Made by a program: the position numbers and the translations under genes. Positions 3,413 to 14,151 of a stretch of DNA of 37,562 bases are shown here, one piece after another (position 1 is the first letter of the stretch; each line of letters begins with the position of its first letter). The notes beneath the pieces were generated by a model. The model made no database searches, was not told the origin of the DNA, and saw only the letters and a program-made list of their open reading frames with translations. The DNA is from Pirellulales bacterium. GTDB taxonomy: Bacteria; Planctomycetota; Planctomycetia; Pirellulales; Thermoguttaceae. Location of the stretch: contig JAFGDS010000057.1 in assembly GCA_016931995.1 (NCBI GenBank), forward strand, positions 1 through 37,562, read 5' to 3'.

Positions 3413-4240
3413 TCACAAGAATGCCTGAAAACTCTCCAACAGCATCCCGACGATCAAATTCCAACCGTCCAAAAGGACGAATAGGAGCAGCTTGAAGGGC
3501 AGCGAGATCAGCACGGGCGGCAGCATCAACATGCCCATCGACACCATCACGCTGGCCACGACCATGTCCAATATCAGAAACGGCAAATAGATCTGAAACC
3601 CGATCAGGAAGGCGGTTTTCAACTCGCTGAGCATGAAGGCGGGCAGCAGGGCCAGGATCGGCACGTCGTCGTAGTCTTCGGGTGGATTGGCTTGCGTTTG
3701 GGGCATGTAGTCGAGGAAGAGATACACGTCGTCGCTGTTGCCGGTCCGCTCGATCTGCATGACCATGAACTTCCGGATCGGCGCCACGCCCGCCCGGCAC
3801 GCCTCGTCCAGCGAAAGCTGCTTGTTCGTGTACGGCACGACGGCGTCGTCGTAAACTTGTTTCCACACCGGCGCCATGACCACCAGCGAGATGAAAAGCG
3901 CCAGCGACGTGATGACCTGGCTCGGTGGGAGCTGCTGCGTGCCGATTGCCTGGCGCAACAGACCCAGCACGACGACGATCCGCACGAAGCACGTCGTCAT
4001 CAGGAGCACGGCCGGCGCGAGGCTCAACACCGTCAGGAGCAGCATCACCTGGATCGTCGAGCTGAGCCCCTCGGGGCTCGTCCACCGCTCGGGGCCGGCC
4101 GTCAAGCCGCCGGGCAGCGCCGCGTCGAGCGACATCGGCGCGTTGGGCGATTCCTGCGCCGGCGCGAGCGGCGCGAGGATCGCCGTCAGCAGCAGGGCAA
4201 CGCGGCAGCACCGGCCGATTCCTCGCGTGCGATCAGACAT
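3413..4240 (-). CDS. fliP: Flagellar export gate protein FliP
   Basis: The 275-residue product starts with a cleavable-looking signal peptide ([19 protein letters not shown]), as is known for FliP. Four membrane segments follow. Family hallmarks are [27 protein letters not shown], the [14 protein letters not shown] loop, the periplasmic domain, and [29 protein letters not shown], with [21 protein letters not shown] close to the end. FliP forms the pentameric core of the export gate. Its ATG overlaps the end of fliO by 8 bases, which suggests translational coupling. Confidence 0.95.
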
Positions 4241-5069
4241 CCATGCCCTCCCAGTCGTGGCGGGACCGGCCCGCGTAGCTTTCCGCGGGATACTCGGCGT
4301 AGTCCGGCTCTGGTTCGGTTTGTGGCTCGGTTGTTTCGCGGCTGAACTGGTGGAGAACTTGGCGGAAGACGGCCGTCGAGCTACCCGGCTGGGCCGCGCG
4401 GCACAGCCCAGCCAGACGATCCACCTCGACGGGATCCGCGATCTCGGTCAAGGTCTCCGCGCCGGACGGCGTGACCGAAACCAGGAGGAGCTTGTTGCCG
4501 CACCGCAACAGGTGCACGTGTTGCCGGGCCGCCAGCGGGGCGCGGCCGAGCACCTCGACCACTTCGCCAGGCAGTGCCGTCGCGCCGCGCGGCGCCGCGC
4601 GCCGCATTGCCCAGGCCAACACGAGAAAGAGCCCCAGCACCGCCGCCAGGGCCCCGCCGGTTGTGGTGAGCATCCCCAAGCCGCCGCGCGTGCCCGAGGT
4701 TGAACGACTTGCCCCGCGAGGCGGCAATCGGACGGCGTCCGGTTCGCCCCGCGGGGGAAGCGGCTCGGGCTGAACTTGGTGTTCGGGGGGCAACGGCGCC
4801 GTGGGGGGGACCGCCGCCGTGCCCGTTCCCGATGCCGCGTCGGCCGCCGGCTGGTTGAATCCCGCGGGGACGACGCCCAGGTCAAACCGCGGGCGGGTAA
4901 CGGAGGGTGTCTTATCCCCCGCGGATGTCGCGGTTGGCCAGTAGCCCGCTTGCGCCGTTCCCCCCAGGGCATGGGGCACGCCATCCAACTCGGATGCGGC
5001 CGCGAGAGAGCACGCGAGGACAATCAGAATGACCCCCGATAGGAGGGGCCGCGCACTGGTTCTGGTCAC
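4233..5069 (-). CDS. fliO: FliO-like flagellar biosynthesis protein
   Basis: FliO assists assembly of the FliP ring. This 278-residue product is longer than enterobacterial FliO. It begins with a signal-like hydrophobic segment ([17 protein letters not shown]) and has a long Pro/Ala-rich periplasmic stretch to about residue 145. One transmembrane helix follows ([21 protein letters not shown]), then the conserved FliO cytoplasmic domain with [22 protein letters not shown] and [20 protein letters not shown]. The assigned start is GTG, chosen because AAGGAAG lies about 8 bases upstream. The gene directly precedes and overlaps fliP. The 147-base gap to fliN (5070-5215) contains no recognisable gene. 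Confidence 0.85.
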
Positions 5070-5215: not shown

Positions 5216-5995
5216 TCACGCGCCCACGCCGGCGATCAGCTCGGCCACGCGGACACAGAAGTTATCGTTGAGCACGAGGACCTCGCCCCGGGCCACCAGC
5301 CGGCCGTTGACGAAGATGTCGACCGGATCGCCGGCCAGCTTGTCCAGCGGGACAACCGAGCCCTTGCGAAGCTTCAGGACGTCCTCGAGGTACATGTGCG
5401 TCCGCCCCAACTCGATTTGGACGTCCAGGTCCACGTCGCGAATCAAGTCGAGCGTGGCGATCTCCGCCGAGGCGGGCGCCCCGGTGAATTGCTGGAGGTG
5501 AAAGCTGTCGACGCCGGGAATCGCCCTCTCCGAGGTGGGCGCGTCGATCGATTCGATTGCCCGTTGGGCTTGCTCGAGCAGAAACTCGACGTCTTTGGCC
5601 GCCATGGTTCCCTCGCCGACCATGGTTCCCGCGCCCGCGGGCGACGGACCGACCGAGGCCGTCTTGGGCGGCGGTTCCATGACCGTTGTTGGCTTCTGGC
5701 CACCGGCCCCGGCCTTTGAAAGCAGCTTCTCGATGTCGTCCTGGGCCAACAATTTGTCGGCGTCGGCGGGACCTTCGGCAGCCGGCTTCGCGCCGCCGGA
5801 GAGCATCGCCTCGATTTCGGCCTGATCGATGGCCGATTCGGCGGCCTCGCCCGATTCCGCGGGAGGCGCTGGGGGCTCCTCCGCGCCGTCGGCGGGAGGC
5901 TTGGCCTCCGGCGAACCGCTGGGAGCCGATCGGGCCAGGAGCTTTTCAATATCGTTCTGGTTGACCAGATCGTCGTCAGCCATGGCGGAATCCAT
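5216..5995 (-). CDS. fliN: Flagellar switch protein FliN with extended N terminus
   Basis: The C-terminal 75 residues or so (about 185-255) are a SpoA/FliN domain: DVDLDVQIELGRTHMYLEDVL, KGSVVPLDKLAGDPVDIFVNGRLVARGEV, then VRVAEL. FliN forms the base of the C-ring and helps set rotation direction. The protein is 259 residues, about twice the usual length. The extra N-terminal part is Ala/Pro-rich and carries repeated short motifs like the CheY-docking peptide of FliM/FliY (LSQ-x-EID-x-LL): VNQNDIEKLLA (11-21), IDQAEIEAMLS (56-66), LAQDDIEKLLS (83-93), and a degenerate AAKDVEFLLE (132-141). No FliM gene lies next to it. A second in-frame ATG at 5983 is an equally possible start. Confidence 0.92.
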   Translation of the reverse strand: MDSAMADDDLVNQNDIEKLLARSAPSGSPEAKPPADGAEEPPAPPAESGEAAESAIDQAEIEAMLSGGAKPAAEGPADADKLLAQDDIEKLLSKAGAGGQKPTTVMEPPPKTASVGPSPAGAGTMVGEGTMAAKDVEFLLEQAQRAIESIDAPTSERAIPGVDSFHLQQFTGAPASAEIATLDLIRDVDLDVQIELGRTHMYLEDVLKLRKGSVVPLDKLAGDPVDIFVNGRLVARGEVLVLNDNFCVRVAELIAGVGA

Positions 5996-6036: not shown

Positions 6037-6627
6037 TTATTGCTCGATGTACGAGAAATCGCTGAAGATGACGCCTTTCAAAAGCGGCTTGCCAAGAATC
6101 TGGTTGGTTTTCTCCAAAATCCGCCTTTTGATCAACCCCAATCCGGGATCCGTGACGTCGGAAATGTTGGCCGCCCGGACGATGGCATTGACCTGTTCCC
6201 TCATTCGGGCGTCGTTCTCCTCCTTTAGGGTTAGTAGCTCCTTCTCATCCGATTGGGCGATCATTCCATAAAGGTGGAAGTCGATTCTCATCGTGGTGCT
6301 TGAGGACGGCTGAAAGGCCGTCACGGTGAATTCTCCGAGGTCCACCTCGACCTGGGGGGCCGTTTCCTCCGCCGCGAGGCTCTCCGTGCCCATGTCCTCA
6401 GTTTCCTCCACTCCGGCCGCCGCCTTGGCCTGGGACTCGGAAACCTGCGGGAGCCAGAGGGTGCCGATCGTGCATTCGGCCAGGACGACGAAGCCGACCA
6501 GCGCCAGCAGCTTGAGCTTGCCCCACAGGGACAGACGGGCGGGGGCGGGAACCTCCGCCGCGTTTTCGGGAGACGGATTATCGGGAGGTGTTTCGTTGGC
6601 CGGCATGATTCGGTTCGTGGTCGACAT
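6037..6627 (-). CDS. fliL: FliL-like flagellar basal body protein
   Basis: This 196-residue protein has a short Pro-rich cytoplasmic N terminus, one membrane segment (LKLLALVGFVVLAECTIGTLWLP) and a periplasmic domain. That domain includes VEVDLGEFTVTAFQPSSSTTMRIDFHLYG and ends with IKRRILEKTNQILGKPLLKGVIFSDFSYIEQ, matching the layout of FliL. FliL surrounds or stabilises the MotA/MotB stator. It comes directly after motB, which supports that role. The assigned start overlaps the end of motB by 50 bases. A second ATG at 6606 reduces the overlap to 29 bases. Neither start has a good ribosome-binding site, so coupling to motB translation is likely. The sequence is divergent, and the name rests partly on context. 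Confidence 0.8.
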   Translation of the reverse strand: MSTTNRIMPANETPPDNPSPENAAEVPAPARLSLWGKLKLLALVGFVVLAECTIGTLWLPQVSESQAKAAAGVEETEDMGTESLAAEETAPQVEVDLGEFTVTAFQPSSSTTMRIDFHLYGMIAQSDEKELLTLKEENDARMREQVNAIVRAANISDVTDPGLGLIKRRILEKTNQILGKPLLKGVIFSDFSYIEQ

Positions 6628-13446: not shown

Positions 13447-14151
13447 CTAGGGTTGTGCCGGCGCGGGTCGTTGGAGCGACTCCTCCGTCTGGCCGGCCAA
13501 CGCGGCCAACGGATAGCCCTCGCGGATCCGACGCAGAATCTCGGCAAGCTTGTCCTCGTCTTCCGGCTCTTTGAATTCGGCGGTGATGCGTTTGCGTTTC
13601 GAGGGGTTCATGCCCGCCACGAGGCGCACCACGGCGTCGATGTCGCCGTCGTCGTACATCTTCACGAGCTGGTCCTTGGCCTGGTTGGGTTTCATGTTCT
13701 GGAGAATGACGATGTTCTCCTCCATGCCCCCGCTGCCGCTGGTCTCGTTGATCTTGGACAACTGCGCCTCGAAGTCCTGGCGAACCTGGTTGAAATGGCG
13801 CAGGTCCTCCGTCTGTTTGCGCTGCTTGAAGCGGAATTCCTCCAAGGCCTGCGCGAGAGCCTGTTCGCGGAGTTCCAGGTCGCGGCTCTTCACGGCCCGG
13901 AGGTCGCGCAGCGCGTCGAACGACGGTTGCTCCGGCGGGACGATCTGGCGGAGCCGTTCGGCCTCGTCGCGCATCGCGGCCAGATCGTATCCCTGGGCAA
14001 TGGCGATCATCTGCTCGAGCTTGCGCGCGTCCATGTTCCACTTCGACCAGACGATAAAGACCATGACGCCGGCCGCGATGGCCGTGCCGACAAGGAAGAC
14101 CACCAGCAGCGTGCCGATCGCGCCGACCAGCCCAAGAAGGCGCCCCATCAT
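13447..14151 (-). CDS. MotE-like membrane-anchored coiled-coil protein
   Basis: This 234-residue protein has one N-terminal membrane helix (LLGLVGAIGTLLVVFLVGTAIAAGVMVFIV), a charged coiled-coil stretch (about residues 40-135) and a small C-terminal domain. That domain contains ENIVILQNMKPNQAKDQLVKMYDDGDIDAVVRLVAGMNPSKRKRI, like the MgtE N-terminal/FliG-type helical domain found in MotE. MotE is known as a chaperone or partner of MotC in some bacteria. The gene overlaps fliJ by 4 bases (ATGA) and is followed 12 bases later by fliK. The family assignment rests on layout and context, and no MotC gene is in view, so its partner here is unknown. Confidence 0.65.
   Translation of the reverse strand: MMGRLLGLVGAIGTLLVVFLVGTAIAAGVMVFIVWSKWNMDARKLEQMIAIAQGYDLAAMRDEAERLRQIVPPEQPSFDALRDLRAVKSRDLELREQALAQALEEFRFKQRKQTEDLRHFNQVRQDFEAQLSKINETSGSGGMEENIVILQNMKPNQAKDQLVKMYDDGDIDAVVRLVAGMNPSKRKRITAEFKEPEDEDKLAEILRRIREGYPLAALAGQTEESLQRPAPAQP

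Follow-up and report, generated by a model that had tools for sequence, protein, structure and literature searches.

We found that a FliN protein of a Pirellulales bacterium carries, along a long N terminus, three motifs (M1, M2 and M3) resembling the peptide by which FliM docks CheY, followed by a separate conserved helix (M4) that precedes its SpoA domain. Because the number of motifs in related FliN proteins follows the presence of a motor-type CheY, and FlhF is without effect, CheY docking on M1–M3 is the best-supported reading that these sequence comparisons suggest.

The window, by which we mean the whole stretch of 37,562 nucleotides analysed, contains fliN in a flagellar operon, flanked on the same strand by fliL and fliO; the names of further flagellar genes on this contig were assigned by eye from the open reading frames. 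The features considered here are the following.

5216..5995, minus strand: FliN open reading frame, 259 aa; a second ATG at base 5983 gives 255 aa.
5234..5446, minus strand: SpoA/FliMN_C domain, the C-ring part of FliN, aa 184-254 (Pfam and Foldseek).
5936..5962, minus strand: M1, NQNDIEKLL, aa 12-20, FliM-like, at the extreme N terminus; AlphaFold helix 13-23.
5801..5827, minus strand: M2, DQAEIEAML, aa 57-65; AlphaFold helix 58-65.
5720..5746, minus strand: M3, AQDDIEKLL, aa 84-92; AlphaFold helix 85-96.
5546..5602, minus strand: M4, AAKDVEFLLEQAQRAIESI, aa 132-150, a separate conserved helix before SpoA; AlphaFold helix 133-151.
6037..6627, minus strand: FliL, the adjoining gene upstream of fliN (Pfam).
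4233..5069, minus strand: FliO, the adjoining gene downstream of fliN (Pfam).

Homologous FliN proteins of relatives start at the residue encoded by the second ATG (base 5983; MADDD...), and the real length of the protein is therefore probably 255 aa rather than 259. Its sole known domain is FliMN_C (SpoA; PF01052, E = 7.7e-24), at aa 184-254. The protein scored 102.1 bits with the NCBIfam FliN model TIGR02480, above the cut-off of 84.05, and its top Foldseek matches in the PDB were FliN chains from C-ring structures (8wiw and 1yab, for example). No fliM lies between fliL and fliN; the single PF02154 gene of the genome is on contig C100, and the N terminus of this FliM, MSGDVLSQAEVESLLSAM, contains one LSQAEVESLL motif. 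A third SpoA protein (L006:6398-7312, contig C77, 305 aa) shows only a C-terminal SpoA domain in Pfam, and by eye its N terminus looks CheC-like. Contig C104 contains a CheA/CheW/CheD cluster with a stand-alone CheY (L109:13242-13604), contig C83 another chemotaxis cluster, of CheA and CheB with methyl-accepting proteins, and contig C106 groups FlhF and FlhG (the latter at L108:3825-4676) with FlhA and a FliA-like sigma factor, the last two read by eye. Within the window, a 234-aa open reading frame between fliJ-like and fliK-like genes (13447-14151, minus strand) had no significant Pfam match and, judged by its position, possibly encodes a MotE-like chaperone.

The original prediction held that motifs resembling the CheY-docking consensus LSQxEIDxLL are repeated along the N terminus of this FliN, with KDVEFLL as a degenerate fourth copy. 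We searched the N-terminal 185 aa with a strict pattern, x-Q-x-x-[IVL]-[DE]-x-[LMF]-[LFI], and with a loose pattern, identical except that the Q is not required. The strict pattern matched exactly M1, M2 and M3; among 200,000 residue shuffles, 363 contained one match, 2 contained two and none contained three, which bears out the claimed repetition. With the loose pattern all four motifs were found, a number reached by none of the 200,000 shuffles, five of which reached three. The claimed resemblance was equally well founded, with M1–M3 fitting the docking consensus as given in PMC5677366 except that E replaces D, a replacement seen also in the FliM of the same genome. M3 is embedded in a longer conserved block, DKLLAQDDIEKLLSKAG. 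AlphaFold, run on the window FliN with 38 homologues, gave low confidence to most of the linkers, in a poorly ordered N terminus. Mean pLDDT was 84 for residues 11-20 (M1) and 81 for residues 81-90 (M3), and only 57-65 for residues 51-70, making M2 the least confident helix.

To the FliN proteins from 46 related genomes we added those from 80 named loci, 21 of which were dropped as duplicates of genomes already included; G002, G006 and G020, genomes whose SpoA matches were all weak, are outside the set. The resulting collection comprised 106 non-redundant proteins, of which 102 were anchored on SpoA and four (L046, L050, L135 and L161) were left out as unanchored. Counting as upstream motifs those located upstream of the last helix, we found that the motifs are conserved in related FliN proteins and that their number varies, from 0 to 5 among the 102 anchored homologues. 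At least one strict upstream motif occurred in 83/102 proteins, at least two in 59/102 and at least three in 26/102; with the loose pattern the corresponding figures were 88/102, 67/102 and 32/102, with a maximum of five. The longest FliN proteins (L175, L176, L178 and L180; 334-362 aa) have four to five strict motifs; in these Planctomycetaceae MAGs the upstream motifs, up to five, take the form SQSDLDALF. One locus titled Candidatus Nealsonbacteria (L127) shares its last 140 FliN residues identically with the planctomycete G016 and is probably a mislabelled or mixed bin.

Sequence change within FliN is distributed as expected for motifs under purifying selection. Between the window protein and its closest homologue, L008, the residue was kept at 26 of the 27 motif codons, ten of these having changed synonymously, as compared with only 35 of 97 codons in the N-terminal linkers. 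Likewise, mean pairwise identity among 38 aligned FliN was 0.60 in the columns of M1–M3, 0.26 in the N-terminal linkers and 0.78 in SpoA.

The motifs also have individual identities. For the 25 proteins that combine M4 with exactly three upstream motifs, we asked to which slot the nearest neighbour of each motif in another protein belonged. For M1–M3 the slots agreed in 63 of 75 cases, whereas label shuffles gave a mean of 24.9 and a maximum of 39; M2 was the least distinct slot (16/25), and the nearest neighbour of M4 was M4 in 25/25. In M4, which includes KDVEFLL (aa 134-140), the acidic pair is followed by an aromatic residue or leucine and then by a conserved QAxxAL(A/E)S helix. Because it forms a sequence class of its own, differs in these residues and continues into this helix, M4 is not a decayed docking motif, and we rejected both its reading as a fourth docking site and the proposed degenerate copy. 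Its role is probably structural, or in binding an assembly partner.

To compare motif number with CheY, we used the 39 genomes with a FliN orthologue, leaving out eight divergent FliN that lack an array (L046-L053), and scored as motor-type any CheY whose best match to the window genome's own CheY had E < 1e-40. Genomes with a motor-type CheY averaged 2.29 upstream motifs (n = 28), against 1.00 in genomes lacking it (n = 11; Mann-Whitney p = 0.0002), with the qualifications that the cut-off was set after seeing the gap in E-values (1.3e-43 to 9.4e-30) and that a divergent motor CheY may serve genomes scored as lacking one. Some genomes are fragmented MAGs, in which an absent gene may be a gap; among those at least 85% complete (n = 32) the means were 2.17 and 0.89, respectively (p = 0.0008). 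When each genome lacking motor-type CheY was paired with its nearest CheY-containing relative on the SpoA tree, motif number was lower in 9, higher in 1 and tied in 1 (p = 0.021), and phylogenetic regression attributed to motor CheY between 1.2 and 1.4 additional motifs (p < 1e-4 under each of three lambda settings). A stricter test on the tree yielded 2 well-supported independent pairs, too few for significance. The relation was present within CheW-containing genomes alone (27 versus 5, p = 0.0023). Conversely, motif number bore no relation to FlhF (1.94 versus 1.86, p = 0.92).

CheW was also considered as the explaining variable and rejected. In a pooled set of 86 genomes, from which the CheW search left out 9 of 59 non-redundant loci (four cut at the 5' end, the others including near-duplicates) as well as L170, at least three upstream motifs were found in 27/69 genomes with CheW and in 0/17 without it (Fisher p = 0.0009). 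Nevertheless, comparison with the nearest CheW-containing relative gave 6 lower, 1 higher and 10 ties, the 4 well-supported independent pairs on the tree did not reach significance, and motor CheY explained more.

Loss of the chemotaxis genes does not generally empty the array. At least one upstream motif was kept in 15 of the 17 genomes without CheW, and one or two in 8 of the 11 without motor-type CheY. The motif of FliM was likewise intact in 7 CheW-negative genomes, indicating that retention alone is no proof of CheY; one genome lacking CheW (G057) does have an orthologous CheY. In genome G012 (98% complete, with neither CheW nor motor-type CheY), M1 survives in damaged form (GDIEAQL) and both M2 and M3 are missing; its relatives G015 and L136 retain three and two upstream motifs, respectively. 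Decay of the G012 array by frameshift was considered and rejected, as the other two frames conceal no M2 or M3.

CheY and the CheY-like Cle proteins of Caulobacter use the FliM motif LSQxEIDxLL (PMC5677366). The N-terminal peptide of FliM is the target of CheY, which, once tethered there, is considered to go on to second sites, located on FliN in E. coli (PMC7355467). We consider it moderately probable that the array serves mainly phosphorylated motor CheY, with M4 distinct and with a second role besides. On this view, the long flexible N terminus of Pirellulales FliN would display FliM-type docking peptides in an array whose main ligand would be the phosphorylated motor-type CheY that is encoded beside CheA, CheW and CheD in the same genome. 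M1, M2 and M3 would each fold into a short amphipathic helix on binding, and these tethered helices would catch CheY-P as the FliM peptide does. Several helices per FliN would raise the local concentration of CheY at the base of the C-ring; one FliN might hold several CheY molecules, with possible consequences for switching. Since FliM keeps a single motif, the array on FliN would multiply the docking sites for CheY at this position; assuming the FliM-FliN3 arrangement described in PMC6946799, simple arithmetic would give nine FliN sites per FliM site. M4 would be a different, nearly universal helix beside SpoA, and a second role, independent of CheA, would belong to one or more of the motifs, usually M1.

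The persistence of a motif without motor-type CheY or CheW suggests that CheY is probably not the sole partner, making a second one likely. The persisting motifs may reflect a second partner, for example FlhG, or else CheA-independent receivers like Cle, or slow loss. A division of labour by slot would account for this persistence, with M1, and perhaps M4, acting in assembly by way of FlhG or a different partner in the C-ring and with M2, M3 and any further copies added for CheY. This proposal, which we consider unlikely, agrees with the finding that slots are not interchangeable and that usually one motif is left when CheY or CheW is missing. Nevertheless, M2 is the slot with the weakest identity, slot identity may stem from descent and local linkers instead of from partners, and the leftover motif could serve CheA-independent, CheY-like receivers comparable to Caulobacter Cle (PMC5677366).

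Alternatively, all the motifs could be docking sites for FlhG, the flagellar ATPase of the MinD family that loads FliM/FliN or FliY onto FliG, with extra copies capturing more FliN during C-ring assembly. FlhG binds the N terminus of FliM in monotrichous bacteria (PMC12826062), and in B. subtilis the binding of FlhG to FliY requires the first 36 residues of FliY, which also suffice for it (PMC12327844). The window genome encodes FlhF and an FlhG whose N terminus, MVDQASELRELM, agrees with the DQAxxLR motif quoted in PMC12327844, and persistence of motifs without CheW is also compatible with this proposal. However, copy number tracks CheY and is unrelated to FlhF, which marks FlhG, and genomes G008, G009 and G032 have two to three upstream motifs with no FlhF above the cut-off and no match to FlhG at 1e-12. 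FlhG was scored by presence at this threshold, which may miss divergent proteins, and was for this reason kept out of the statistics. Altogether, we judge FlhG a rather improbable explanation for the array as a whole.

A very improbable alternative is that the helices bind within the C-ring, to their own or a neighbouring SpoA, to FliM or to FliH, holding the ring together, and that their likeness to the CheY peptide reflects a shared amphipathic form. M4 is nearly universal (79/102 homologues) and close to SpoA, and SpoA domains are known as platforms on which peptides bind, for example FliH (4yxc, among the Foldseek matches). Packing of the helices on SpoA is, however, unsupported by the single-chain AlphaFold model (pTM 0.32), a monomer model being blind to contacts between subunits, and this alternative leaves unexplained why copy number follows CheY. 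Finally, low-complexity coincidence, which an N terminus rich in A, P, E and S might have suggested, has virtually no chance of being correct, being refuted by the shuffles, the purifying pattern, slot identity and the recurrence of strict upstream motifs among homologues.

Several known systems resemble the array in part. FliM shares the core Q-x-x-[IV]-[DE]-x-LL in a disordered context, at the extreme N terminus as for M1 of the window protein; conversely, FliM had one motif in 38 of 49 loci and never more, against three in the window FliN, which also lacks the FliM middle domain PF02154 in Pfam. The C-terminal CheY-binding helix of CheZ is the same kind of short helix and binds the same face of CheY, although as a single copy on a phosphatase. 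FliY combines an N-terminal EIDAL with a C-terminal FliN/SpoA part, and the SpoA part of the window protein scores well on the FliY model; nevertheless, the score on the full model (105.4) is far under the cut-off of 218, Pfam gives no CheC domain at E values up to 1, and FliY has one motif where the window protein has several. Activation of CheY reportedly does not improve its binding to T. maritima FliY (PMC7355467).

Full or degenerate EIDAL motifs occur sporadically in FliN and FliY (PMC6946799). We also examined 77 matching genomes of the phylum, which provided 41 FliN from other planctomycete families (the rest including the window genome and G051); by the same pattern, at least one motif was present in 17/41 and two in 5/41. 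The original view that FliN normally has none was, therefore, too strong. The sporadic FliN with a single EIDAL resemble the window protein in bearing a motif ahead of SpoA, and differ from its lineage, in which as many as five upstream motifs, each slot with an identity of its own, are accompanied by a separate M4. In the literature covered here (on FliN, FliM, FliY, CheY, EIDAL, planctomycetes and CheZ, with most subscription journals outside it) we found no published report of a tandem array on FliN. Thus, a single EIDAL on FliN or FliY was already published, and the tandem array is apparently new.

The profile search that yielded these 77 genomes also revealed motif arrays on long non-FliN proteins from two other planctomycete families, with up to 10 motifs under a pattern that permits V or M at the last position.

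L245:9689-11407, L244:6654-8936, L248:8404-10431, L250-L254, L257 and L258: membrane-TPR carriers of family f29, with EIDxLL-like motifs.
L259-L266, L268 and L269: coiled-coil carriers of family f50, with near-identical GQDDIDALL motifs.

Of 244 genomes, ten encode membrane-TPR proteins of this kind; all ten genomes belong to family f29, and the proteins have 1-10 motifs each, with at least three in 9/10. Among the eight f29 loci with visible upstream sequence, a response regulator lies directly upstream on the same strand in 6/8, and a response regulator or histidine kinase is nearby on the same strand in 8/8. The unrelated coiled-coil family was found in 11 genomes, all of family f50, with 2-10 motifs in ten proteins, the remaining one being cut. 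A third kind of array carrier, of 972 aa (L246:8182-11100), had no Pfam match and contains SQEDIDAMI and, by eye, several LDQxAIDALL repeats. By association only, the f29 and f50 arrays support docking of receivers. Tentatively, tandem EIDxLL arrays might be a multivalent means, of general use in planctomycetes, of capturing receiver domains. Pirellulales would bear the array on FliN, making the base of the C-ring a high-capacity CheY reservoir; in other families its carrier, with as many as ten motifs, would be a coiled-coil protein or a membrane-TPR protein whose operon also encodes a dedicated receiver and histidine kinase. We regard this generalization as possible, if somewhat doubtful.

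These arrays bear on old questions of motor biology, namely the steep sensitivity of the switch to CheY and the path that CheY follows after its first contact with FliM. A lineage whose FliN proteins have from none to five putative docking peptides, in step with CheY, constitutes a natural dose series for relating docking valency to switch sensitivity. Should receivers indeed be caught by the arrays of unrelated proteins as well, the peptide known from FliM would represent a docking code that is portable and reaches beyond flagella.
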